The notes under the pieces are model-generated. The model was not told the DNA's origin. It searched no databases and worked only from the letters and a program-made list of their open reading frames with translations. Of a DNA stretch of 41,534 nucleotides, positions 2,133-41,534 are shown piece by piece. The position numbers and the translations under genes were made by a program. Source of the DNA: Methylophaga sp. UBA2689 (GTDB taxonomy: Bacteria > Pseudomonadota > Gammaproteobacteria > Nitrosococcales > Methylophagaceae); NCBI GenBank assembly GCA_002354555.1, contig DELT01000008.1, positions 48,433-89,966 on the forward strand. The letters are read 5' to 3'. Each line of letters begins with the position of its first letter. Positions within the stretch are counted from its first letter, which is position 1.

Positions 2133-2158
2133 AAAGCCATTCATCGCGGAGCAAAAAA

Positions 2159-3796
2159 ATGAAAGCAGCAGAGCTATTTGTCCGTACTCTGGAAAATGAA
2201 GGTGTGGAATATGTTTTTGGTATTCCCGGTGAGGAGAATCTGGATGTCATGGACGCCTTGCTCGATTCATCCATTCAGTTTATTACCACCCGGCATGAAC
2301 AAGGCGCGGCCTTTATGGCAGATGTCTATGGTCGACTCACTGGTCGTGCAGGCGTCTGTATGGCGACACTGGGTCCGGGTGCGACCAATCTGATTACTGG
2401 TGTGGCTGATGCCAATATGGATCATGCGCCCCTGGTAGCCATTGCCGGTCAGGCTTCGACCAATCGCTTGCATAAAGAATCGCATCAGGTCCTTAATCTG
2501 GAAGCAATGTTTTTACCCATCACCAAATATTCCACGCGTATTGTCAGCCCTGAAGTGATTCCGGAAATTGTTCGCAAAGCCTTTAAAGTGGCGCAGACCG
2601 AGAAAACCGGTGCCTGTTTTATTGAGTTTCCTGAAAACATTGCCGAGATGGAAATTGACGATGCTCCACTACGGGTCAAACACGCCACGCCACCTGAACC
2701 CGCTGCTGAATATATTGAACGAGCAGCAGAATTAATTTCCAATGCCGAAAATCCGATTATTCTGGCGGGCAATGGTGTCATTCGGGCGAATGCCGCTAAA
2801 GCGCTGACTGAATTTGCTGAAAAGCTGGGAATTCCAGTAGCCAACACCTTTATGGCCAAAGGTGTTATTCCGTTTGGTCATCCAATGTCACTGGGCAGTG
2901 TAGGTTTACAATCCAATGATTACGTTAATACCGGATTTGCCAATGCTGACGTAATTATTTGCATCGGTTACGACATGGTCGAATACCATCCTTATCTTTG
3001 GCATCCCTCACGCGATCGTACCTTGATTCATATTGATACCACTCATGCCGAGGTTGATGGATATTACAGTGTGGTATTGGGAGTTGTGGGCAATATTACC
3101 CACAGCCTGAACCGAATTGCAGCCCTCACTTCACCACATGAAGGTAAGGCCATGCGCACATTACGCGACAGTCTGATTACAGAAATGAATCAGCATCGTC
3201 GTGATACCGAATTCCCGGTTAAACCACAGAAAATCATCTGGGATCTGCGTACCGCCATGCATCTGGAAGATATTGTGATTTGTGATGTGGGTGCTCATAA
3301 AATGTGGATGTCACGGATGTTCCGCTGTGAATACCCGAACACCTGTATTATTTCCAATGGCTTTGCCAGCATGGGCATAGCGGTTCCGGGTGCAATTGCA
3401 GCCAAACTGGCGCATCCTGAACGTAAAGTCGTTGCTGTAACCGGTGACGCTGGTTTTCTGATGAATTCTCAGGAAATTGAAACAGCCATGCGGTTGAATA
3501 TCGCTATTGTCATTCTGATTTGGAACGATGCAAGCTACGGGCTGATTGAATGGAAACAGCAAAATCAGTTTGGCCGAACCAGTAATGTAAAATTCGGTAA
3601 CCCGGATTTTGTACAATATGCGCAATCATTTGGCGCGACCGGTGTCAGAGTCAACAAGACTGAAGATCTGATAACCGTTTTAAAAGAAGCATTGGATAGT
3701 AATACCGTTACGGTCATCGATTGCCCGGTTGATTATCGTGAAAATCTGAAACTGACAGAATCTCTGGGTCAATTAACCCAGCAAACTGAGAGATAA
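2159..3796 (+). CDS. Acetolactate synthase-type thiamine diphosphate enzyme (large-subunit family)
   Basis: This 545-residue protein has the three-domain plan of the acetolactate synthase family. An N-terminal TPP PYR domain carries FGIPGEENLDVMDAL and the catalytic glutamate Glu47 in TRHEQGAAFMADVYGR. A central domain follows, then a C-terminal domain with the Mg-TPP motif starting GDAGF and continuing to NDASYG. The family condenses two pyruvates to 2-acetolactate; relatives act on other 2-oxoacids. No regulatory small subunit gene (ilvN or ilvH) is adjacent, and the length and layout resemble the stand-alone catabolic AlsS type more than an IlvBN pair. A GGAG ribosome-binding site precedes the ATG. 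The TlpA-like gene follows after one base. The exact substrate is not certain from sequence. Confidence 0.8.
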   Translation: MKAAELFVRTLENEGVEYVFGIPGEENLDVMDALLDSSIQFITTRHEQGAAFMADVYGRLTGRAGVCMATLGPGATNLITGVADANMDHAPLVAIAGQASTNRLHKESHQVLNLEAMFLPITKYSTRIVSPEVIPEIVRKAFKVAQTEKTGACFIEFPENIAEMEIDDAPLRVKHATPPEPAAEYIERAAELISNAENPIILAGNGVIRANAAKALTEFAEKLGIPVANTFMAKGVIPFGHPMSLGSVGLQSNDYVNTGFANADVIICIGYDMVEYHPYLWHPSRDRTLIHIDTTHAEVDGYYSVVLGVVGNITHSLNRIAALTSPHEGKAMRTLRDSLITEMNQHRRDTEFPVKPQKIIWDLRTAMHLEDIVICDVGAHKMWMSRMFRCEYPNTCIISNGFASMGIAVPGAIAAKLAHPERKVVAVTGDAGFLMNSQEIETAMRLNIAIVILIWNDASYGLIEWKQQNQFGRTSNVKFGNPDFVQYAQSFGATGVRVNKTEDLITVLKEALDSNTVTVIDCPVDYRENLKLTESLGQLTQQTER

Positions 3797-3797
3797 A

Positions 3798-4301
3798 ATG
3801 AAGTCTGGAAAACGTTTTGCACTTTTTATAGCCGCCCTGTTTGCATTACTGTTTGTCGTCTTTATGTACAAGAATGCTACTGCTCCGGCCTACACCGAAC
3901 TTACGTTTGAGGATGTAGATGGGAAGATGCATGATTTCACCGACTATGCTGGTAAACCAATATTGATGATTTTCTGGGCGACTGATTGTCCAGCGTGCAT
4001 TCAGGAATTGCCTGAACTCATTGCTTTGCATGAAGAATACGCAAAAAAAGGCTTGGTCATGCTGGGCGTTTCACTGCCTCACGACACACCCTCACATATC
4101 AAGGCAATGCGTGAAGACCGTGGCCTTCCCTACACGCTTATCTGGGACAGTGATGGCGAAATTTCCACCGCGTTTAATAATGTTCGGGTGACACCAACTC
4201 ATTATCTGATTTCGCCCGAAGGCAAAATTGTGATGCGCAAAATTGGCGTACTCGATAAAAAGAGCGTTTCAGCACAGCTCGACAAAATGGGCCTCAGCTA
4301 A
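3798..4301 (+). CDS. Membrane-anchored TlpA/ResA-like thioredoxin-fold protein
   Basis: This 167-residue protein has a basic start (MKSGKR), one hydrophobic segment at about residues 7-24 that should serve as a signal anchor, and a periplasmic thioredoxin domain. The redox motif is CPAC at Cys64-Cys67 in FWATDCPAC, and a cis-proline sits in VTPTHY. TlpA/ResA/DsbE-type proteins reduce disulfides in periplasmic targets such as apocytochromes. Which target applies here cannot be told. It starts one base after the TPP-enzyme stop codon, so it is co-transcribed with it. I see no obvious functional link between the two. Confidence 0.85.
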   Translation: MKSGKRFALFIAALFALLFVVFMYKNATAPAYTELTFEDVDGKMHDFTDYAGKPILMIFWATDCPACIQELPELIALHEEYAKKGLVMLGVSLPHDTPSHIKAMREDRGLPYTLIWDSDGEISTAFNNVRVTPTHYLISPEGKIVMRKIGVLDKKSVSAQLDKMGLS

Positions 4302-28939: not shown

Positions 28940-30189
28940 CGGTCAATCTCCCCGAAAACAATATCCATAGTGCCTATAATCGCCACCACATCAGCCAGCA
29001 AATGTCCCTTGGCCATTTCGTTCATTGCGGCAAGATGAGGAAAGCCTGGCGCACGTATTTTGACGCGATACGGTTTATTGGCACCATCTGAAACCATATA
29101 AATACCAAACTCACCCTTAGGGTGTTCTACGGCGCTATATACTTCACCTTCTGGCACACAATAACCTTCAGTAAACAGCTTGAAATGATGAATTAACGCT
29201 TCCATATCATCTTTCATATCCGCCCGACTGGGCGGAGCAATTTTGACATTATCAACAATCACTGGGCCGGGATTGTCCCGCAGCCAGTCAATACATTGCT
29301 GCATGATTTTGTTGGACTGACGCATCTCTTCAATGCGTACCAGATATCGATCGTAACAATCGCCCTCTTTACCTACTGGAATATCAAAATCCAGTTGGTC
29401 ATAGACTTCATAGGGCTGTTTGCGTCGCAGATCCCATTCCACACCGCTGCCACGTAACATTGGGCCGGTAAACCCCAGTTGTAATGCACGTTCTGGTGAC
29501 ACCACTCCGATACCCACAGTACGTTGCTTCCAGATACGGTTATCAGTCAACAGCGTTTCATACTCATCAACACATTTGGGAAAGCGTTGACAAAAGTCCT
29601 CAATAAAATCCAGCAGGCTGCCTTCGCGGCTTTGATTTAACTTTTTAACTTCGGCGTCAGAATGCCATTTGGATTTTTGATATTGCGGCATGCTGTTGGG
29701 TAAATCACGATACACCCCACCTGGCCGGTAATACGTTGCATGTAACCTTGCACCGGATACAGCTTCATAACAGTCCATTAAATCTTCACGCTCACGGAAG
29801 CAGTAAAGAAAAACAGTCATGGCACCTATATCCAGACCATGTGCACCAAGCCACATCAGGTGATTCAAAACCCGGGTCATTTCATCAAACAATACCCGGA
29901 TGTATTGTGCCCGGACCGGAGGTTCAATGCCCAACAGCTTTTCAATCGCCATCACATAGGCATGTTCGTTACACATCATCGACACATAATCCAGCCGATC
30001 CATATAACCAATACTCTGGTTATACGGTTTGGACTCGGCCAACTTTTCGGTACCTCGATGTAACAGACCAATATGCGGATCAGCGTGCACAATAACCTCG
30101 CCATCCATTTCCAGAATCAGCCGTAATACACCATGTGCAGCTGGATGCTGTGGGCCAAAATTCAACGTGTAATTTTTTATTTCAGCCAT
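28936..30189 (-). CDS. nuoD: NADH-quinone oxidoreductase subunit D
   Basis: This 417-residue subunit descends from the NiFe-hydrogenase large subunit and forms the quinone-binding cavity with NuoB. Diagnostic parts are [22 protein letters not shown] with the quinone-contacting histidine loop, [14 protein letters not shown], and the C-terminal DIVFGEIDR. It is separate from nuoC, unlike the fused nuoCD of E. coli. The start shares one base with the nuoC stop. Confidence 0.97.
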
Positions 30190-30857
30190 TATTTCTTGGC
30201 CTCACCATGCGGTTGCAGGTAACGGTTATCATCACGAATTACCCGCGGTACAAGCGTTCTTGGTTCAATACTGACAGGCTGATAAATCACTCGCTTCTGT
30301 TCGGGGTCATAAAGCATTTCCACATTGCCAATCAATGGGAAATCCTTGCGAAATGGATGGCCGACAAAACCATAATCCGTCAGAATACGTCGTAAATCTG
30401 CGTGACCTTTGAACAGAATGCCAAATAAATCAAAGGCTTCACGTTCGTACCAGTCCGCCGAATGCCAGATGCCGGTGACTGAATCAATAATGGGCGTTTC
30501 AGCAATCAGATCTACCTTCAGACGAAGTCGATTATTGTGTTGCACTGATAGCAGATGATAAACCACGGCATAGCGAAAGCCTTCGTCCATTTCGTCGATT
30601 TGCGAAAATGATTCACGCGCCCGACTAAAACCATGTTCGGTGGCCTGTTTGGTTTCCCAGCCACTGTTGCCATAGACAGAATAATCTACACCGCATAAAT
30701 CAATTAACTGAGTAAACCCAAATTCATCACGTAATGCTTTGCATACTGGGATAATCTGTTCCGCTTCAATGCGGATGGTTAATTCGCCACGATTAAACTC
30801 ACACTCCACCAGCTGATTGGCAAAATGCTGTTCCAGTTTATGTTTAAGCGATTCCAT
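30189..30857 (-). CDS. nuoC: NADH-quinone oxidoreductase subunit C
   Basis: This 222-residue peripheral subunit is recognised by [11 protein letters not shown] at 136-146 followed by [24 protein letters not shown]. It carries no cofactor and stabilises NuoD. The unfused C subunit is the ancestral arrangement kept in many proteobacteria. It starts nine bases after the nuoB stop. Confidence 0.96.
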
Positions 30858-30866
30858 GCAACAACC

Positions 30867-31355
30867 TTATGCTTGTGAGCTTTTAGCGATGGTATTGGTG
30901 CGCTGAATTTTTTTCTGTAACTGAATAATGCCGTAAAGCAGGGCTTCAGCCGTTGGCGGACAACCCGGCACATAAATATCCACCGGTACTATTCGATCAC
31001 AGCCCCGCACGACTGAATAGGAATAGTGATAGTAGCCTCCACCATTGGCACAGGATCCCATCGAAATCACCCAGCGAGGTTCTGACATCTGGTCATAAAC
31101 TTTGCGTAATGCCGGTGCCATTTTGTTGACCAGAGTTCCAGCCACGATCATCACATCCGACTGACGGGGGCTGGGCCGAAACACTACCCCGAAACGATCC
31201 AGATCATAACGTGAAGCTCCGGCATGCATCATTTCAACTGCACAACAAGCCAGACCAAAGGTCATCGGCCATAAAGAACCGGTACGGGCCCAGTTGATTA
31301 ATTTATCTGCTGAAGTGGTGACTATACCTTCGTGGAGAACGCCCTCTATTCCCAT
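30867..31355 (-). CDS. nuoB: NADH-quinone oxidoreductase subunit B (N2 cluster)
   Basis: This subunit is 162 residues from the ATG at 31355 and carries the terminal N2 4Fe-4S cluster. Its four cysteines are at 37, 38, 102 and 132 ([26 protein letters not shown]). A longer frame opens at 31376, but AAGGAG (31368-31363) lies seven bases before the 31355 ATG and the protein then starts MGIEGVL, as is usual, so the shorter form is preferred. It overlaps the nuoA stop by ten bases. Confidence 0.95.
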
Positions 31356-31702
31356 TCCAGGGCTCCTTTTTTCCATTCATAGATAAAGCCCACTACCAGA
31401 ATTCCCAGAAACAGGAACATAGCCAGCAAACCAAACACCCCGATTTCATCGAGCACGATGGCCCAGGGGAATAAAAAGGCGATTTCCAGATCGAAAATGA
31501 TAAACAGGATGGCAACCAGGTAATAACGCACATCAAATCTGCCATGCGTGTCTTCAAAAGGTTCAAAGCCACACTCATAGCTGGAGCGTTTTTCGGCATC
31601 GGGGCGCTGTGGCCCGATAATAAAGCCTGCAATTAAAGGCATTACACCGAAGCCAATGCCAATAATGATAAACAACAAAATGGGGAGGTATCCCTCTAAC
31701 AT
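31346..31702 (-). CDS. nuoA: NADH-quinone oxidoreductase subunit A
   Basis: This 118-residue protein has three membrane helices and begins the nuo operon. [11 protein letters not shown] at 41-51 is the conserved loop near the quinone site, and [11 protein letters not shown] at 70-80 is the conserved second helix. The last codons overlap nuoB. It is the first gene of a 15-gene minus-strand unit that ends at 17080. Confidence 0.96.
31363..31368 (-). promoter_or_regulatory. Ribosome-binding site that fixes the nuoB start
   Basis: AAGGAG on the minus strand lies inside the last codons of nuoA, seven bases before the ATG at 31355. It decides between that start and the in-frame ATG seven codons upstream. 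Confidence 0.75.
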
Positions 31703-31842
31703 GCCGCCCTTCCACTCTTACGAGATGTAGTGTCTTTGTGACACCTGATAGTTATTATTGTTTTTAAGAAATCAAAATTATTTGATCAACACCCGATAGT
31801 ACACATTAACGGGCTGTATTTGAAGCGCGCATTTAGATGCAT
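31703..31842 (-). promoter_or_regulatory. Leader and probable promoter region of the nuo operon
   Basis: The 140 bp before nuoA hold no gene. On the minus strand two TTGATY hexamers occur in an AT-rich stretch around 31765-31793. TTGATC is followed 17 bp later by TAAAAA, and TTGATT is followed by TAACTA at 15 bp. Neither is a strong promoter, and the exact start is undetermined. A small inverted repeat GTGTC-TTTGT-GACAC lies at 31730-31744, between these boxes and nuoA, and would be in the mRNA leader. Confidence 0.35.
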
Positions 31843-32115
31843 TTATTCATGAACATAATTCTCCAGCTTTAAGACTAATTCTTCAGGAGTAATCGGCTTG
31901 CTGAAATAATATCCCTGCACATAATCGCAATTCATTAATTTCAGGGATTTCTCCTGCTCTTCAGTCTCCACGCTTTCAAAAACGAGCCTTCTGCTGTTTG
32001 CGTATTGTGATGTCTGAAATAATGTCATTAACTCCTGATAAATTACCCAGCTCGAGTCCCAGCTATATTCCAGAACTATCTGCTGACCGTTCAGTTTAAG
32101 ATTGGTGGTAGATTT
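31843..32115 (-). pseudogene. C-terminal remnant of an EAL-domain protein
   Basis: An open frame of about 90 codons is bounded upstream by TGA at 32118-32116 and ends at TAA 31845-31843. Its last 50 residues match the end of EAL phosphodiesterase domains: ESVETEEQEKSLKLMNCDYVQGYYFSKPITPEEL, here split as ESVETEEQEKSL and NCDYVQGYYFSKP. In normal EAL proteins the first motif is AEGVETEEQ; here it is FESVETEEQ. The upstream 40 residues do not look like an EAL domain, and no EAL, DDFG or KxD motif is present. I infer a decayed fragment left by deletion, not a working enzyme. An in-frame ATG at 32028 could start a 61-residue peptide, but no function is apparent. Confidence 0.65.
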
Positions 32116-32239
32116 TCATTCACAACGGCGGCGGGAATAAGAGATCAACAAGCTCCAGCTTACCCATTTCGTTACTATGTTAAACCTCAAGCCTTTTTGC
32201 CAAGGTCATCTTTAATATTAGCTTTAAGCGATTTACTTT
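32116..32239. other. Intergenic region before the RarD-like gene
   Basis: This completes the 537-bp stretch between nuoA and the RarD-like gene. Apart from the EAL remnant next to it, no gene is seen. An AT-rich segment (about 32196-32222) with TTGCCA could contain a weak promoter for the permease gene, but box spacing is poor. There is no strong ribosome-binding site before the ATG at 32240. Confidence 0.4.
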
Positions 32240-33118
32240 ATGTATGGACTGATTTTCGCCATTGCCGCATACGTTATATGGGGCAGCTTCCCACTTTATT
32301 TCAGTTATCTCAATAGCGTATCAGCCGTTGAAGTTTTGTCGCACCGGATCCTCTGGTCTTTACTTGCCACTACGGTGGTAGGTCTTTTATTGGGCCGCGG
32401 CCGAAAGTTGATTAAGACTTTTGCTGATAAAAAATTATTATTGTGGCTGGCGTTATCCTCGTTACTGATTGCGCTAAATTGGTTGATATTTATCTGGGCG
32501 GTTTCACAACATCGTGTGCTGGAAGCCAGTCTGGGGTATTTCATTACCCCGGTAATGAGTCTGCTACTGGCAAGATGGTTGCTCAAGGAACAGTTGCATC
32601 CGTTACAGGCATGGGCTGGCATTCTGGCCACGATTGCTGTTTTGTGGGAATGGCTCAGCCTGGGGAGTATTCCATGGGTCGGCTTATCGTTGGCCCTGGC
32701 ATTTGCGCTTTATGGACTTATACGAAAAAAACATCCTGTCGATGGCGTAAATGGATTGACCATTGAAACCTTATGGTTGGCCCCTGTGGCGCTGGTGTGG
32801 ATCCTCTGGCAAGCAACAAATGTTGATTACAATCTCGCATTTGGTGAGAGTTCACAATTGACGCTGTTACTCATTGGCTCAGGTTTTCTGACCGCATTGC
32901 CTTTGGTTCTCTTTGCTATGGCGGCCAGTCGGGTCGATTTATCTGTGGTGGGATTTATCATGTACATCAACCCAACCATTCAGTTTGTGATTGGAGTTTT
33001 TGTTCTTAAAGAGTCCTATCCTCCCGAACGGCTGATTACCTTTGCAATAATCTGGATAGCATTAATATTTTTTATTGCAGGCATGTGGAAAAAACATCAT
33101 CAGCGTCGGCAGATTTAG
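32240..33118 (+). CDS. rarD: EamA-family permease, RarD type
   Basis: This 292-residue protein has about ten membrane helices in two repeats of the DMT/EamA fold. The N terminus (AAYVIWGSFPLYFSYL, then EVLSHRILWSLL) is the RarD signature, and the second half contains AASRVDLSVVGFIMYINPT. RarD was named for a chloramphenicol-sensitivity phenotype, but its transport substrate is not established. It lies alone on the plus strand, and its stop codon overlaps the end of the convergent DUF72 gene by four bases. Confidence 0.88.
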   Translation: MYGLIFAIAAYVIWGSFPLYFSYLNSVSAVEVLSHRILWSLLATTVVGLLLGRGRKLIKTFADKKLLLWLALSSLLIALNWLIFIWAVSQHRVLEASLGYFITPVMSLLLARWLLKEQLHPLQAWAGILATIAVLWEWLSLGSIPWVGLSLALAFALYGLIRKKHPVDGVNGLTIETLWLAPVALVWILWQATNVDYNLAFGESSQLTLLLIGSGFLTALPLVLFAMAASRVDLSVVGFIMYINPTIQFVIGVFVLKESYPPERLITFAIIWIALIFFIAGMWKKHHQRRQI

Positions 33119-33843
33119 TTGTTTAACGTGGTTAATAACTGGCGTGCATCTTCAGGTGCACAGCCTTTTTGATCATTATCAAAGAAGCAATACACATCCC
33201 TGCCCTCCTGTTGCCATTGTCTGAATTTATCGGCATAACTATTTAAACGATTTCCATGATACGAACCTTCATAGGCTTTTTCAGGACCATGCAGCCTGAC
33301 GTAAATAAAATCTGCAGTGATCACTTCCGGGGATTGAAAGCCTTTAAAATCGTAAAAACATAACGCTGCATTGTATTGTTTCAATAGCTGATAAACTTCA
33401 TCGTTAAGCCAATCTTTATCACGAAATTCGAATGTATAGCGATATTCGCCTGGTAAGGTCTGGAGAAATTCTTTCAGACGCTCAGGATTAGCATGCCAGT
33501 TTGGCGGCAGCTGAAACAGAATGGGACCGGATTTTTTCTGGATGGGTTTTATTGCTGTAAAAAAATTATCAATGCTTTCTTCTGGATCCTTGAGTTTTTT
33601 GTTGTGGGTTATATATCGGCTGGCCTTTATCGCGAAGCTGAAATCGGATGGGGTAACCTCCATCCATTTTTTCAGGCTTTTCTCACTTGGCAGATGATAG
33701 AAACTATTATTGATTTCTGTGGCATCAAACACACTGGAATAATACTTCAGATAGTCATCACTCTTTATCCCTGCCGGATAAAAATTGTCTTTCCATTGTG
33801 AATAACTCCATCCGGATGTTCCGATATGGACTTTAGCCATCAT
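33115..33843 (-). CDS. DUF72 (YecE-like) protein
   Basis: This 242-residue soluble protein has a TIM-barrel-like DUF72 fold. The family pattern is seen in HIGTSGWSYSQWKDNFYP at the N terminus, EINNSFYHLPS, the GPILFQLPPNW segment, the FEFRDKDWL motif and YVRLHGP. No biochemical role is firmly established for DUF72. Two ATG codons (33843, 33840) are possible starts. The 5' end overlaps the last 11 bases of the ligD frame, so it is probably translated with the ku-ligD operon. Confidence 0.85.
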   Translation of the reverse strand: MMAKVHIGTSGWSYSQWKDNFYPAGIKSDDYLKYYSSVFDATEINNSFYHLPSEKSLKKWMEVTPSDFSFAIKASRYITHNKKLKDPEESIDNFFTAIKPIQKKSGPILFQLPPNWHANPERLKEFLQTLPGEYRYTFEFRDKDWLNDEVYQLLKQYNAALCFYDFKGFQSPEVITADFIYVRLHGPEKAYEGSYHGNRLNSYADKFRQWQQEGRDVYCFFDNDQKGCAPEDARQLLTTLNN

Positions 33844-36310
33844 CCACCTCCGTTACCATTTGCTGTGTAAGACTTTGTCGAATCGATGGATAAACAAACA
33901 GCTTATTTGCCGCCTGACGTTGCAGAACATCTTCTATTGAAAACTGGCTGGCAGAAGAAAGCGAATCCAACTCGTCCCAGTGCAGGGGTAACGCAACCGG
34001 AGCCCCTGGTCGTGCACGCACTCAATAATCCATTACTGCAGTTGAAGCAAAATCATTGCGTAAATAATCAATAAAGATTTTTCCCTTACGCTGTTTTTTG
34101 GCCATATTAATCGTATAGGCCTGGGGTACCGCCTTAACCATCTGCTGTGCGAAATTCCGGGCAAACGTCTTAACCATATCCCAGTCCTGTCGACGTTGGA
34201 TGGGAACAGTAACATGCAGACCTTTACCTCCAGTACATTTGACGAAGGATTCAAGTCCCAAATCATCCAGGCGATGTCGCACATCCTGGGCAGCAAGTTT
34301 TACTGCTTCGAATGGAATACCTTCATCCGGATCCAGATCAAACACAATCTTATCCGGCTTTTCGATGTTGTCGATTTTAGCGCCCCACGGATGCATCTCA
34401 ATGCTGCCCATCTGCACCAGTTCAATCAAACCCATAAGTTGTTTCAAATAAATATACTTGTGCGATTTGTTGTTATGGCTGATAGCTATGGTATGGATAT
34501 GTTTGGGCATGCCTTTTCCTTTGGAACGCTGGAAAAAGCATTGATGATCAATACCACCGGGGCACCGAACAACGCTTAGAGGCCGGTTTTTCAACGTCGG
34601 CATAATGTGCTCACTGAGCGCCTCATAATATGAGGCTAATTCACCTTTAGTGATTTGAGCTTGAGGAAATATCTGTCTGTCAGCATTGCTGATGACGATG
34701 CCGGCAACTTCATAAGTCTCTGCTTTTCGAGATCGTTTAGCAGTGGCGACTGGTTGCTCTTTAACAATTTGCCGGGGTTTCTTATCTGCACGTAATCCCT
34801 GGAATGACGCATGGCGAACTTTGCCGCTCCTGGTCCAAGTGGCAAATTCTACTTCACATAATAATTCTGGTTTTACCCAATTTGTGGTTTTGAAGCTGCC
34901 TTTTATTTTCTGATCAAACGCCGGTTTATTTATTTGTAATGGTTGCAATTTTTGATACAAATCAAACGCTATTTGATGACTGAAGCCGGTTCCCACTTTC
35001 CCGGCATAAAGCAGTTCATTTTGCTGATAAAAACCCAGGTGAAGGGAGCCAATCGCCTTATCGCTGGCGCTGGTAGGTTCAAAGCCGCAGATAATAAACT
35101 CCTGTCGTTGCTGACATTTACTTTTCAGCCAGTGTTTATTTCGCGTTTGACTGTATTTGGCATCAGACTTTTTAGAAATAATGCCTTCCAGATTCAAATC
35201 ACAGGCTTTGCTGATAATTTCTTTCGCATCGCCCTCTACAATCTCACTCAGATACAAAGGCTCTGTTGGTAATTCCTTAAACAGCTGTTCCAGAGCCTGA
35301 CGACGCTGGGTTAATTTTTTATTGCTGTAATCCTCGCCATTCCAATAGAGCAAATCAAAAAAATACCCCTGCATGGGCACATCTTGGCGTGTCAGCGCTT
35401 CCTGTAATGCTTTGAAATCACTGACACCTTTATCATTAATAACCACCACTTCACCGTCCAGAACAAATGTGCCGGTCTCCAGTTTTTGAAAAGCCTGCGC
35501 GATAAGTGGAAACTTATCTGTCCAGTCATGACCATTGCGGGTTCTGATTTGCACCTCGCCGTTTCTGAAAAACACCAGAATACGGTAGCCGTCGTATTTC
35601 ACTTCGTGAACCCAGTTTTCTCCTGTTGGCGGATGGTCGACCAATGTGGCTAATTGAGGTGAGTGGTATTTTTTTTGTAAGGTTGTTAACTCGTCCGCAA
35701 CGTTTACCGGATCAGAAACAGCAGTGGAAATATTGGCCGCAATTTCTGCAAAAACGCGACCTGTTTTAACGCTGTAATCTGTGGTTGTTAAAAATTTCGT
35801 ATCTGGTTTAGCTATCGCGGTGTCATCATTACGCTTGATAAGTAACCAGTTTTCCCGGCCTTTCTGTTTGTCATTCATCCGTGCCAGCGTCCATTCACCG
35901 GTTAATTTCTTACCTGATAAACGAAAGCTGATTTTTCCCTGTGCCAAGGCTTTTTCAGGATCCTTATCCAGTGGTTCCCACACACCTGTATCCCAGAGCA
36001 TGACAGGACCAGCCCCATATTGCTTGGCGGGTATTATGCCCTCAAAATCGTGATATGAAAGTGGATGGTCTTCAGTTCGAACGGCAAGTCTTTTATCTTT
36101 TGGGCAATAACTGGGACCTTTGGGAACCGCCCAACTGAGCAGAACGCCCTGCCATTCAAGCCGAAAATCATAATGCTGACGAGTAGCATCATGTTTTTGA
36201 ACGGTAAAGAGCAGTCCGGTTTTACGTTTTTTACTAAGCTTTCCGGGTGGTTCTTGAGTGAGTTCAAAATTTCGTTTGTCGTTATATTTTTTTAACGCAT
36301 TGTCGGCCAT
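33833..36310 (-). pseudogene. ligD: ATP-dependent DNA ligase LigD, interrupted by an in-frame TGA
   Basis: The full frame of about 825 codons has the LigD order. The 3'-phosphoesterase domain is near residues 30-150 (HDATRQHYDFRLEW). The ligase domain is near 215-510, with nucleotidyl lysine Lys238 in HEVKYDGYR. The primase-polymerase domain begins near 535 (KIVFDLDPDEG metal motif, GGKGLHV). A single TGA at 34024-34022 stops translation at VMDY. The next codons, in the same frame, read VRARPGAPVALPLHWDELDSL, the conserved end of the polymerase domain, for 62 residues to 33833. Relatives have Ser at the stop position (YSVRARPG), one base away from TGA. A polymerase lacking its final 60 residues is likely impaired; the other two domains could still work. 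The start is the ATG at 36310 with AAAGGAA upstream, not the TTG at 36334. The gene could be a true nonsense allele, a read-through case or a sequence error. Confidence 0.88.
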
Positions 36311-36320
36311 AAAAAGACGC

Positions 36321-36327
36321 TTCCTTT
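36321..36327 (-). promoter_or_regulatory. Ribosome-binding site selecting the ligD start
   Basis: AAAGGAA on the minus strand lies ten bases before the ATG at 36310 and supports it over the in-frame TTG at 36334, which overlaps this site. Confidence 0.55.
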
Positions 36328-36340
36328 GCCTCAAATAACA

Positions 36341-37171
36341 TTACGAGGCTTTAGATTTTGAAGTCGATTTCTTTCTGGTTTTTTTGCTTTTCTGACTTTG
36401 TTCAAGGCTTTTTTTCAAGGCATCTACAATATTCACGACATTATCAGCTTGTGGTTTTTTGCCTGAAGTGGTGACTTTTTTATCCTTTAATTTGGCTTCA
36501 ATAATATCCAGTAAGCCTTGCTGATAATTATCTTTAAACGCTTTGGGATCAAAAGGGCTGGTTTTCTGTTCAATTAATTGCTTGGCGAGTTCAAGCTGCT
36601 CTTTATTAATCTTGGCTTTTTTAGGGATATCTTCAAAATAGCGCTCAGATTCACGCACTTCATAGTCGTATCTCAGCGTATCCATAATCATGCCATTACA
36701 ACAGGGACGCAAACAGACAATGCGTTCTTTCTTGTTCAGGACTACCTGGCCGATTGCTGCTTTTTTTGAAGATTTAAGGGCTTCCCGAACGGTAAGAAAA
36801 GCCTCTTCAGCTATCTCCCCTTCTGGTACCACATAATAGGATTTTTCAAAATATATCGGATCAACATCATCAATATCAGTGAACTGCACCAGTTCAATAG
36901 TATGCTTACTTTCCAGCTTAAGTTTTTCCAAATCCTCATCTTCGATTGGAACATAACTGCCCTTCTCATATTCATACCCTCTGACAATATCTTCGGCAAC
37001 CACTTCATCGCCACTTTCATCAACTTTCTGATAATGGATACGTTCACCCGTTTCTTTATCATATTGATGCAGTGAAATTTTTTCGCTTCTGGTAATCGCC
37101 GCGTGCAGCCTGACCTGAAACGAAACCAGTGAGAGACGGATATGTCCTTTCCAATATGCGCGTATTGCCAT
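36341..37171 (-). CDS. ku: Bacterial Ku protein (non-homologous end joining)
   Basis: This 276-residue homodimeric Ku binds double-strand DNA ends and recruits LigD. It starts MAIRAYWKGHIRLSLVSFQVRL, as is typical, and includes YEYEKGSYVPIEDEDLEKL and the LRYDYEVRESERYF segment of the core ring. A lysine-rich C-terminal tail (KKTRKKSTSKSKAS) is of the kind that binds DNA in proteobacterial Ku proteins. ligD follows 30 bp downstream, giving a complete ku-ligD operon. Confidence 0.95.
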   Translation of the reverse strand: MAIRAYWKGHIRLSLVSFQVRLHAAITRSEKISLHQYDKETGERIHYQKVDESGDEVVAEDIVRGYEYEKGSYVPIEDEDLEKLKLESKHTIELVQFTDIDDVDPIYFEKSYYVVPEGEIAEEAFLTVREALKSSKKAAIGQVVLNKKERIVCLRPCCNGMIMDTLRYDYEVRESERYFEDIPKKAKINKEQLELAKQLIEQKTSPFDPKAFKDNYQQGLLDIIEAKLKDKKVTTSGKKPQADNVVNIVDALKKSLEQSQKSKKTRKKSTSKSKAS

Positions 37172-37202
37172 AAAGATAGACCTTTTTGAACATGAAAATC
37201 GG

Positions 37203-37231
37203 AATTAAAGGCTTAACTGACAGAACGTCAA
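37203..37231 (-). promoter_or_regulatory. Putative sigma70 promoter of the ku-ligD operon
   Basis: TTGACG (37231-37226) and TTAATT (37208-37203) are separated by exactly 17 bp on the minus strand and lie just over 30 bp before the ku ATG. The -35 matches five of six consensus bases, the -10 four of six. Confidence 0.5.
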
Positions 37232-37290
37232 GATAAATAAAGCCTATTTAAATCTTAGAGATATGAACAAAAATAGCAAGATCAGAAAGT

Positions 37291-37328
37291 AAAAAACCCG
37301 CTCAGCGATGTTATTCACTGGCGGGTAT
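37291..37328 (-). terminator. Intrinsic terminator after the secG-tRNA-Leu transcript
   Basis: On the minus strand ACCCGC and GCGGGT pair across a 19-base loop (with inner CAG/CTG pairing) and run into six T residues at 37296-37291. It lies nine bases after the tRNA CCA end and separates this unit from ku. Confidence 0.8.
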
Positions 37329-37336
37329 TTATATAT

Positions 37337-37421
37337 TGGTGCCGTCGGCCGGAGTCGAACCGGCACACCCTAAGGCACTACCCCCTCAAGATAGCGTGTC
37401 TACCAATTTCACCACGACGGC
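37337..37421 (-). tRNA. tRNA-Leu (anticodon GAG)
   Basis: This 85-base gene folds as a class II tRNA. The acceptor arms GCCGTCG and CGACGGC pair perfectly, and the D-loop contains GAAATTGGTAGA. The anticodon stem CTATC/GGTAG encloses TTGAGGG with anticodon GAG. A long variable arm and a T-arm with GGTTCGA follow. CCA is encoded. It reads CUC and CUU leucine codons. It lies 19 bp after secG, as leuU does in E. coli. Confidence 0.95.
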
Positions 37422-37440
37422 AATTAACTGTGAGGGATTT

Positions 37441-37773
37441 TTATGGAAAGTCTGGGAGATCCGCAGGACTTTCTTCTGCAGGCTGTTCAATCACCACTGA
37501 GTCAGTAACACTCTGAACACGATCAGCGTTACCAGCAAGATAAGCCAATGTCAGACTGGTAATAAAAAATACTGTGGCCAGAATGGCGCTGCTACGACTC
37601 AGGAAAGATGCAGAGCCCTGACTCCCAAACAGGCTTGAAGAAGCCCCACCGCCGCCACTGCCACCGCCGCCAAATGCAGCACCGGCATCAGCACCTTTAC
37701 CGTGCTGGATTAAGATCAAACCAACTAACAATAGTGAGATCACAATGTGAACCACCAGAATCAACGCATCCAT
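37441..37773 (-). CDS. secG: Protein translocase subunit SecG
   Basis: This 110-residue protein has two membrane segments (about 2-21 and 60-82) around a glycine- and serine-rich cytoplasmic loop ([17 protein letters not shown]). The start [20 protein letters not shown] and the following [15 protein letters not shown] are diagnostic. SecG assists SecYE and SecA in protein export across the inner membrane. It starts eight bases after tpiA and is followed by a tRNA-Leu gene. Confidence 0.96.
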
Positions 37774-37781
37774 TTAACTTC

Positions 37782-38567
37782 CTAATTTTGAACTGCAGCC
37801 TGACAGATTTTTACAAATTCATCGGCATCTCTTGAGCCGCCGCCGATTAATCCACCATCAATATCGGGCTTGGCAAATAATGGAGCAGCATTATTACCTT
37901 TTACGCTGCCGCCGTAAAGTATTCTGAGTGATGCGGCAATATTCGCATCATGTTTTGCCACCCGCTGACGCATGAACGAATGTACATCCTGCGCCCATTC
38001 CGGGCTGGCTGTCTTACCTGTTCCGATTGCCCAGACAGGTTCATATGCCAATACCACTTTTGACAGCGCTTTGACCCCTTGTTGCGCAATCACTATATCC
38101 ATCAAGCGTGCCACCATTTCTTCGGTGCGGCCCATGGAGTGTTCTTCCGGGCTTTCACCAATACAGATAATGGGGGTAATGCCATGCTTGACGGACATTT
38201 CATATTTTTCTGCGATGATATGATCAAGAAAAACCTGATCCAGATTTAGCTCTGCATACAGGCAACGTCGTTCGGAATGACCAATCAACACATACTGACA
38301 ACTAAAGTCATGCAACATTGCCGCTGAAATTTCACCGGTATAAGCACCAGAATCAAATTGCGACACATTTTGCGTCCCCCAATACATTCCTGTACCGGAT
38401 AAAGCAGACTGAACCTGTTGTATATATAGTGCAGGAGGGAATAAAGCGACATCAACTGAAGCAAAGGAGTCTCTTTGCGCCAGTATCGCATCAAGCAACA
38501 ATTTGTTGCTTGCGCTAGAGCCGTTCATTTTCCAGTTACCAGCGACCAGCGGTTTGCGCACAGACAC
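37782..38567 (-). CDS. tpiA: Triosephosphate isomerase
   Basis: This 261-residue TIM-barrel enzyme interconverts dihydroxyacetone phosphate and glyceraldehyde 3-phosphate. The catalytic residues are Asn11 and Lys13 (GNWKMNG), His97 (IGHSERR) and Glu176 (AYEPVWAIGTG), with an intact loop 6. The start codon is GTG at 38567, with GAGAG upstream. It lies between glmM and secG, a conserved gammaproteobacterial order. Confidence 0.97.
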   Translation of the reverse strand: MSVRKPLVAGNWKMNGSSASNKLLLDAILAQRDSFASVDVALFPPALYIQQVQSALSGTGMYWGTQNVSQFDSGAYTGEISAAMLHDFSCQYVLIGHSERRCLYAELNLDQVFLDHIIAEKYEMSVKHGITPIICIGESPEEHSMGRTEEMVARLMDIVIAQQGVKALSKVVLAYEPVWAIGTGKTASPEWAQDVHSFMRQRVAKHDANIAASLRILYGGSVKGNNAAPLFAKPDIDGGLIGGGSRDADEFVKICQAAVQN

Positions 38568-38586
38568 CTACTCTCAATAAGAATTA

Positions 38587-38592
38587 ATTATA
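38587..38592 (-). promoter_or_regulatory. Consensus -10 box before tpiA
   Basis: TATAAT on the minus strand (38592-38587) lies about 20 bp before the GTG start of tpiA, in the 94-bp gap after glmM. No strong -35 is visible at the usual spacing, so it may be weak or chance. Confidence 0.35.
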
Positions 38593-38661
38593 AAGGGTAC
38601 CGACAGACCGAAGATAAAGCAATGTCCTCTCCGCTCACTCTGTTGGCATAGAATTACTTAT

Positions 38662-40011
38662 CTAACGTTGTAATATTATCTCAATTTGTTCGGCCAGAGA
38701 CTTGGCTAACTGGTTCGTGCGGGTTGCATCGTGCCCCTCAACCATTACTCTTATAACCGGTTCTGTTCCGGAAGCTCTCAGCAGCACTCGCCCTTCCTGA
38801 CCAAGTGTTTTCTCCACTTCTTCTACAGCCGTTTGAATTTCCGGATAATCCCGTAAATTAACCAGCTTATCAATACGTACATTAACAAGACGTTGTGGAT
38901 ATTTTATGACAGCAGAGCACAGTTCATGCAGGCTGCTACCCGTTTGCTGGATTTCAGCCAGTACCTGCAATGCTGCAACAATACCATCCCCCGTGCTGGT
39001 TTTATCCAGACAGATAATATGTCCTGAGGCCTCGCCACCAATCAGTCCTTCAACCTGTTGCAGCTTCTCCATCACATAACGATCACCGACATTTGCCCGA
39101 TGCAGAATGATGTCGTGTTTTTCCAAGGCATGTTGCAATCCCAGATTCGACATCTGTGTACCGACCACATGGCCTCTATCCAGACCAACACGTTGTCTTC
39201 CACGGGCAATGATAAACAGAATATCATCACCATCCACCAGCTCGCCCTGATGATCCACCATGATAAGGCGGTCACCATCGCCATCCAGAGCAATACCCAA
39301 ATCAGCTTTATGCTCGAGAACGCTGGCTTGCAGTAATCGCGGTTCAGTCGAACCACAATTCTGATTGATATTCAGACCATCCGGCTCGGCGCCCATCAAA
39401 ATGACTTCGGCACCCAGTTCACGGAATACGTTTGGTGCGATGTGATAAGTGGCACCATGAGCGCAATCCACCACAATTTTCAGATTGGATAAATCAACCC
39501 CAGTCGAAATGGTGCTTTTACAAAACTCAATATAACGTCCTGCAGCATCAGCAATACGGTGGGCCTTGCCTAAATAGGCAGAATCAACCGTTCTAATCGG
39601 CTGGTCAAGCATTGCCTCAATCGCCAGTTCAACTGAATCCGGTAACTTGGTTCCCTTATCAGAGAAGAATTTAATGCCATTATCATGATAGGGATTATGC
39701 GAGGCACTGATTACAATGCCTGCCTGGGCATGAAATGTGCGGGTTAGATAAGCTACTGCGGGGGTTGGCATTGGCCCCATTAAATATACATCTACACCAG
39801 CGGCTGAAAGGCCTGCCTGTAATGCGGATTCAAACATATAACCGGATATTCGGGTGTCTTTACCGATCAAAACCTTGCTGTTACGTTCCTTCGCCAACAC
39901 ACGTCCAATCGCCCAGCCGAGTTTTAATACAAAGTCAGGTGTAATGGCGCCATCGCCTACTCTTCCTCTGATGCCATCAGTACCAAAATAACGTCGTTTC
40001 TGTTCAGTCAA
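38662..40011 (-). CDS. glmM: Phosphoglucosamine mutase
   Basis: This 449-residue alpha-D-phosphohexomutase converts glucosamine 6-phosphate to glucosamine 1-phosphate for peptidoglycan and lipopolysaccharide precursors. The phosphorylated serine is Ser104 in [16 protein letters not shown], the magnesium loop is DGDGDR, and the sugar-binding motif is GGEASGH. The terminal phosphate-binding loop is [15 protein letters not shown]. It overlaps folP by eight bases. Confidence 0.97.
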
Positions 40012-40843
40012 AATCGTTAACCTGCATTACATGTTCACACAATCGGACTGCCTGTACGGTTTCCCGGACATCATGACTGCGTATGATCTTTGCGCCTTGC
40101 CATATCGCTATCGATGCCAGAGCCAGGCTTCCCGCCAATCGTTCTTCAACCGATATATTGAGCATCGCACCGATAATGGATTTTCGTGAAACGCCGACCA
40201 GCACAGGCAGATCCGATTCCGTTATCACCGATAGATGCTTCATTAATCGCAGATTATGACGGGCATTTTTACCAAAGCCAAATCCCGGGTCCAGAATAAT
40301 CTTTGAACGCGAGATTCCCGCTGCTTCACAGGCAGCAACCCGCTCAGACAGAAATTCATTTACTTCACTGACCACATCGGAATAGTGGGGCTGTTGTTGC
40401 ATGGTTTGAGGTGAGCCCTGCATATGCATCAGGCACACCGGCACGCCCAGTTCTGCAGCTGCCTGTAATGCCCCATCACCACGCAATGCATTTACATCGT
40501 TTATCAGGCTCGCTCCAGCAGTGACTGCAGCACGCATCACCTCAGCCTTCATGGTATCAATTGAAATAACCACATCAAGCTCAGCATGAATGGCTTCTAT
40601 TGCAGGCACCACTCGGCGAATTTCTTCTTCAACACCAACAGGTTCAGAGCCGGGACGAGTCGATTCGCCACCAATATCAATAATAGTAGCGCCATCAGCA
40701 ACCAGTTTTCGAGCTTGTTCGAGGGCTTTATCAGCCGAAAAAAAACGCCCGCCATCCGAAAAGGAGTCGGGCGTTACATTGACGATGCCCATAACGTGCG
40801 GAGCGGACAAATCCAGAGATTTGCCCGCAAAATCCATCATCAT
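40004..40843 (-). CDS. folP: Dihydropteroate synthase
   Basis: This 279-residue TIM-barrel enzyme joins p-aminobenzoate to the pterin diphosphate in folate synthesis and is the sulfonamide target. Motifs present are [37 protein letters not shown] and GVSRKSIIG. Three consecutive ATG codons occur at the start, and the first (40843) is used here. It follows ftsH by 13 bp and overlaps glmM. Confidence 0.97.
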
Positions 40844-40856
40844 GATTTAACTTTTC

Positions 40857-41534
40857 TCAGTTTAATTGATCAGCAGGTTTGCCTGTAGGTTCCGGGCCAT
40901 CTTCATCTGCTTTAGCGGATGGTGGTGGAGTCGATGATTTATCATCCCAACCCTTAGGTGCACCTGGTTCACGTCCTTCCATGATCGCATCTATCTGATC
41001 GCTATCAATCGTTTCGTATTTGATCAGAAGTTTTGCCATGGTGTGCAATTTATCAGCATTTTCAGTCAGAATATTTTTGGCACGATCATAATTCCTGGTA
41101 ATCAATGCACGAACATCTTCATCAATCTGTTTAGCTGTCAAATCAGATACTGACTTGTGCTGGGTAACACTGCGACCCAGAAAAACTTCGCCTTCTTCTT
41201 CACCATAAGATAAAGGCCCCATATTGTCCGATAGTCCCCATTTGGTGACCATATTGTGTGCCAGTTCTGTTGCCCGCTGAATATCATTTGAGGCACCAGT
41301 AGTCACTGCTTCAGCACCAAAAATCATTTCTTCAGCCAGTCGACCGCCATACAGGCTTGAAATCTGACTTTCCAATTGTTGTTTGGTGTAACTGTATCTG
41401 TCTTCGATCGGTAAAAACATCGTTACACCCAGCGCACGACCACGAGGGATGATACTCACTTTATACACTGGATCGTGGCCCGGTACACTGCGCCCAACAA
41501 TGGCGTGACCGGCTTCATGATAGGCCGTCAGTTC
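40857..41534 (-). CDS. ftsH: ATP-dependent zinc metalloprotease FtsH, C-terminal part (runs off the window)
   Basis: The frame is open to the window edge and gives the last 225 residues. The zinc-binding HEAGH motif is at 41519-41505, and the third ligand aspartate is in TTGASNDIQRAT. The protease domain includes LESQISSLYGGRLAEE. A variable proline-rich tail (STPPPSAKADEDGPEPTG) ends the protein. FtsH is a membrane-bound hexameric AAA protease that removes misfolded and regulatory proteins. The GTG at 41468 is internal, not the start. Confidence 0.97.
   Translation of the reverse strand, partial: ELTAYHEAGHAIVGRSVPGHDPVYKVSIIPRGRALGVTMFLPIEDRYSYTKQQLESQISSLYGGRLAEEMIFGAEAVTTGASNDIQRATELAHNMVTKWGLSDNMGPLSYGEEEGEVFLGRSVTQHKSVSDLTAKQIDEDVRALITRNYDRAKNILTENADKLHTMAKLLIKYETIDSDQIDAIMEGREPGAPKGWDDKSSTPPPSAKADEDGPEPTGKPADQLN

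Follow-up and report, generated by a model that had tools for sequence, protein, structure and literature searches.

We consider it probable, at about two chances in three, that the ligD gene in the window (the whole 41,534-nucleotide stretch of Methylophaga DNA analysed here) has suffered a recent nonsense mutation that inactivates the polymerase domain (POL) of its product, and that this took place within an accessory, dispensable and probably horizontally acquired ku-ligD block. Methylophaga is a methylotroph and is not pathogenic. The gene order and the parts of ligD that are referred to below are as follows.

32240-33118, plus strand: RarD-like transporter gene, which flanks the block and which we take to be rarD (open reading frame, conserved in relatives)
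33102-37285, no strand assigned: ku-ligD-DUF72 block; the closest relative lacks it here and has 79 bp between matching flanks
33115-33843, minus strand: DUF72 gene (PF01904), overlapping at its start with the final part of the orphaned ligD tail
33833-34021, minus strand: orphaned POL end, 62 codons and TAA (PF21686 model positions 212-249, matches to 5dmu and 2fao, arginine conservation)
34022-34024, minus strand: in-frame TGA, at a site that is Ser, Ala, Gly or Thr in 83 related loci
34022-36310, minus strand: ligD body, 762 amino acids and TGA, with the phosphoesterase domain (PE), the ligase domain (LIG) and most of POL (open reading frame and profile matches)
34025-34699, minus strand: part of POL before the stop, residues 538-762 (TIGR02778 at 538-762, model positions 1-224 of 245; PF21686 model positions 1-210 of 254)
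34763-35659, minus strand: ATP-dependent LIG domain, residues 218-516 (TIGR02779 at 218-516)
35816-36310, minus strand: PE domain, residues 1-165 (TIGR02777 at 6-162; PF13298 at 38-144)
36341-37171, minus strand: ku, 276 amino acids, intact and directly upstream of ligD (PF02735, TIGR02772)
37337-37421, minus strand: tRNA-Leu(gag), on the other side of the block

The interrupted reading frame

On the minus strand ligD begins with an ATG at 36310 and continues for 762 codons to a TGA at 34024-34022. Past this stop the same frame is open from a GTG at 34021 for 62 codons, to a TAA at 33835-33833; body and tail are joined without a frameshift and the TGA is the sole stop before the TAA. An earlier note on this DNA had described an in-frame TGA followed by 62 intact codons of the POL end, and the frame bears out both the interruption and the absence of any further stop. 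The body alone exceeds the cut-offs of the curated models TIGR02777, TIGR02779 and TIGR02778, which assign PE, LIG and POL respectively, and the metal-binding aspartate motifs of POL are retained before the stop. In its PE-LIG-POL order (presumably like that of Pseudomonas aeruginosa LigD) and its pairing with ku, with PE, LIG and most of POL intact, the protein resembles other bacterial LigDs of this type, from which it differs in that a stop cuts off the final 63 residues of POL, an RxR motif among them. With regard to conventional non-homologous end joining (NHEJ) by Ku and a three-domain LigD, Ku is present beside LigD and a complete POL within one protein is absent, the stop falling at position 763.

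The Pfam model LigD_Prim-Pol (PF21686) is matched by the body over positions 1-210 of 254 and resumes at 212-249 in the tail (E 6.7e-9), and in a scan of the window's genome it gives a single continuous match with '1 TGA' inside. The tail by itself also matches solved POL domains (5dmu, E 3.5e-6; 2fao, E 0.0024). Because the same model continues across the stop and solved POL domains match beyond it, the tail is genuine LigD sequence; a chance open frame would not match in this way.

The earlier note had also proposed a comparison of this codon with the ligD of relatives, and this was made at 83 related loci (L002-L084), made up of the best 80 of 110 LigD matches and three loci from genomes of the genus; L002 and L082 are one gene, and a single genome (G013) supplies both L083 and L084. 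Among the 81 that could be aligned the residue at the TGA site is Ser in 74, Ala in four, Gly in two and Thr in one, and the two outside this alignment (L051 and L070) have Ser, so that a stop occurs there in none of the 83. LigD does not naturally end at this point, since in all 81 aligned relatives the protein runs on for 52-79 residues and in none does it terminate at the site. As in a nonsense pseudogene, the stop removes conserved sequence and the relatives are intact.

The nearest relative among these loci, L002, is 72% identical and comes from a Methylophaga sp. metagenome-assembled genome; its sequence includes the LigD locus of G017, one of the genomes of the genus to which the window belongs. 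Both glycines at the TGA site belong to this single gene (L002/L082), and in the alignment the solved polymerase 5dmu has glycine there too. The suggestion that the stop arose by one base change from a serine codon (TCA) agrees with the usual residue in the family but is not established, and the residue that preceded the mutation is not certain, because the nearest relative and 5dmu carry glycine.

What the truncation removes

If translation ends at the TGA, the product would be a 762-residue protein with PE and LIG complete and POL short by its final 63 residues. The missing part includes both arginines of the RxR motif, at codons 765 (34018-34016) and 767 (34012-34010). Counted over 78 relatives, with L002, L082 and L084 left out, Arg occurs at position 765 in all 78, and position 767 has Arg in 75 of them and Lys in three. 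Residue R765 aligns with Arg244 of Mycobacterium tuberculosis LigD, after an offset of three residues had been set manually by means of the Asp227 motif. In an excerpt of PMC8656161, Arg244 is described as acting with Ser172 and His178 to form hydrogen bonds to the phosphates of the incoming nucleotide. The catalytic set of POL is thus incomplete in the body, with the phosphate-contact arginine behind the stop, and since the cut removes the invariant arginine that matches Arg244, POL should be inactive in the 762-residue protein. The probable loss of polymerase activity put forward in the earlier note is in this way supported by residue conservation.

A structure prediction for POL of the nearest relative (18 sequences, with 50 of the 60 post-site residues included) has a mean pLDDT of 89.6. 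Its post-site part, for which averages over ten residues lie at 87-97, is ordered and comprises one strand and two helices; the prediction places the tail inside the domain, packed as an ordered part of it. In the shortened protein POL would be inactive and might be misfolded. The contact between Ku and LigD is reportedly mediated by POL (excerpt of PMC7719229), so the effect may reach beyond fill-in and the whole pathway may be impaired: recruitment by Ku through POL could be weakened or lost, and end joining would be lost or limited to POL-independent sealing. The DUF72 gene, moreover, could be deprived of the ribosomes that would otherwise reach its overlapping start. A second polymerase standing in for POL was considered and rejected, as the PF21686 scan found no other Prim-Pol in this 91% complete genome.

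Age of the event

Divergence was compared over the columns with conservation of 90% or more across 78 relatives. The window differs from the consensus at 2 of 59 in PE, 2 of 63 in LIG, 4 of 50 in the POL body and 2 of 7 in the tail, and the nearest relative at 1, 2, 3 and 2 of the same columns. Uncorrected nonsynonymous differences between the two are 0.142 for PE, 0.197 for LIG, 0.116 for the POL body and 0.284 for the tail; among stretches of 57 codons in the body, 16% reach the tail value. The identity of the tail to that of the nearest relative is 57%, and it is as low or lower in 3 of 69 homologue pairs of similar POL divergence. The tail is in this respect somewhat more diverged than is usual, which at most hints, not decisively, that it is slightly relaxed. 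A single reasonably close homologue was found, at 72% identity, against which synonymous sites are saturated, and statements on timing and selection therefore rest on thin data. The truncation looks recent because no clear decay is seen; the signs that had led the earlier note to propose a recent event are borne out, and the window's departures from conserved columns are close to those of its nearest relative.

The ku-ligD-DUF72 block as an accessory element

The block is about 4.2 kb long (4.18 kb) and lies beside tRNA-Leu(gag). In G009, which is the closest genome of the genus by nuoB (100% identical), 79 bp are found in its place (locus L178), between flanks that are 98.9% identical over 4.2 kb to the right of the block and 90% identical on the rarD side. 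Two other genomes, G008 and G007, have other DNA in this position, about 5 kb and about 8 kb long, in which no match to ku, ligD or DUF72 was found. The G+C content of the block is 42%, compared with 46-47% in the flanks. Within the genus LigD and Ku occur together in the same 3 of 24 genomes, that of the window included, and POL was found in 3 of 63 genomes of the order. As the block is absent from G009, the contents of the site vary and the block is poorer in G+C, these comparisons fit a gain, probably by horizontal transfer, at a variable site beside tRNA-Leu(gag), with loss in the relatives as the alternative. Direct repeats of the integrase type were looked for at the block ends, where only two 9-base matches, likely due to chance, were found; nor did a search of 72,556 plasmid records find closer homologues, all 1515 matching records being less than 60% identical and the best-ranked 44%. 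That NHEJ has been gained and lost sporadically among bacteria, and that versions without POL or PE exist, has already been described (PMC7719229, in part). An interrupted ligD in this setting resembles a single-nonsense pseudogene of an accessory gene, with one in-frame stop, a frame otherwise intact and a gene absent from most genomes of the genus that were searched; if the base is real, nothing clear would set it apart from such a pseudogene.

Several observations concern the region and its relatives in their own right. Across Methylophaga the interval from the rarD-like gene to tRNA-Leu(gag) is a variable spot, filled by ku-ligD-DUF72 in the window and by 79 bp, about 5 kb or about 8 kb in other genomes (L178, L179 and L180), and in two further relatives this tRNA gene is close to the nuo operon. 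When positions 29710-41534 of the window are set against L178, identity changes sharply from 98.9% right of the block to 90-93.5% left of it; because of this shift across the block, recent homologous recombination on one side of it is suggested. L178 also has, at 2137-4095 between nuoA and the rarD-like gene, an open reading frame of 652 amino acids which by eye is a signalling protein of the PAS/GGDEF/EAL type, and the window is without it. In G006 the rarD-like gene (L181, 2321-3186) is matched in two frames with a break near a run of A, and is probably frameshifted or mis-sequenced. G013 has two distant LigD matches (L083 and L084) and four Ku-like matches (L174-L177), compared with the single pair in the window. 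In G001, G002 and G011 the nuoB locus (L158, L161 and L169) shows an in-frame TGA just upstream of a later start; an internal stop was rejected, since the TGA precedes that start codon, and members of the genus probably differ in where nuoB begins. Elsewhere in the window's genome a prophage is indicated by phage portal, tail tube and minor tail genes (L146 and L147; G000:C108, about 38600-49100).

Real allele or sequence error

It is possible, though we regard it as unlikely, that the TGA is an error of sequencing or assembly, or is carried by a minority within a mixed population, and that the true majority gene is intact. The genome amounts to 2.9 Mb in 111 contigs (the window lies in contig C76) and is 90.85% complete; so fragmented an assembly, a ligD that is otherwise intact and conserved, and the fact that one substitution would suffice all speak for an error. 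Against it, the change is a substitution and not a homopolymer indel, and it lies inside a contig of 89,966 bases. A control on 430 kb of the genome points the same way: 74 genes have a frame that stays open for at least 40 codons past the stop, 52 of them, ligD included, not covered by another gene, and of ten stop-separated pairs hand-picked from the 51 apart from ligD none shows one Pfam family on both sides. This control is weak, a point in favour of the error, as only four pairs were informative (different families on each side), six had an unmatched side, and frameshifts are invisible to it. At the strength that such a control allows, there is no sign that the assembly is full of interruptions of this kind. 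A screen for interrupted genes by codon usage was of low power and did not flag ligD itself. The odds given here between a real allele and an error are a matter of judgement and not of computation.

Residual function of the truncated enzyme

If the allele is real, a further reading, which we hold to be rather improbable, is that truncated LigD and Ku are still used for POL-independent sealing with template-dependent fill-in switched off, making this a natural separation-of-function allele that arose just after the pathway was acquired. Forms of NHEJ in which LigD lacks POL and/or PE have been described (PMC7719229, in part), and an excerpt of PMC8656161 describes a Bacillus subtilis LigD without PE. 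The likeness to the nonconventional systems of PMC7719229, as far as they are set out in the excerpt, is that Ku and a ligase-phosphoesterase would remain here; the difference is that POL is cut in mid-domain and broken, with its missing end still present downstream. The earlier note was right that the strain would keep PE and LIG, but a broken POL remains with them and the product is not a clean two-domain protein. To call this an unusual form of the end-joining pathway was also an overstatement, given the systems already described.

Read-through and reinitiation

UGA is the leakiest of the stop codons in bacteria, and the frame of the tail is uninterrupted and its sequence still follows the pattern of the family. 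Some full-length LigD might then still be made by reading through the TGA at some level. We think this very unlikely. None of the 83 related loci shares the stop, which a gene programmed for read-through would be expected to have in common with its relatives. TGA is an ordinary stop in this genome: it ends 14 of 33 hand-picked genes of the window (ligD left out), among which it is the commonest stop, and 143 of 392 script-called genes in the 430 kb (ligD included). A suppressor tRNA with anticodon TCA was not seen among the tRNAs recovered, a set that is incomplete in that it has no tRNA-Trp, Lys or Ile, and the folding of the RNA past the stop is no stronger than that of shuffled sequence (z of +1.1 and +1.4). 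A change of code or suppression was set aside on the wide use of TGA as a stop and on the lack of a TCA anticodon among the tRNAs recovered, and a structured recoding element on the folding. A selenoprotein was likewise rejected, as neither selB nor tRNA-Sec gave a match over the cut-offs in the 91% complete genome and the site is Ser, Ala, Gly or Thr in relatives, not Cys. Read-through as a function, which the earlier note had entertained, is thus not supported: the stop is a normal one, and no special signal was found around the codon.

Reinitiation at the GTG, with the separate 62-residue piece completing POL in trans, is scarcely credible. The GTG does follow the TGA directly, as had been noted, and a weak GGA lies about seven bases upstream; however, at this codon the nearest relative has valine, and its tail is predicted to pack within the domain. 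A strong ribosome-binding site cannot be made out, and a split of this kind is absent from all 81 aligned relatives. No sign was seen that this GTG evolved as a start.

Implications

A search for literature linking LigD, non-homologous end joining and Methylophaga found none among the papers covered, and no LigD pseudogene was noticed among the titles and abstract openings listed. The truncation of ligD changes no general view. If the nonsense mutation is real, it would be a further case of a sporadically acquired end-joining pathway that was lost soon after its gain, and the natural truncation could be used to ask whether a LigD without a working POL is able to seal ends with Ku.
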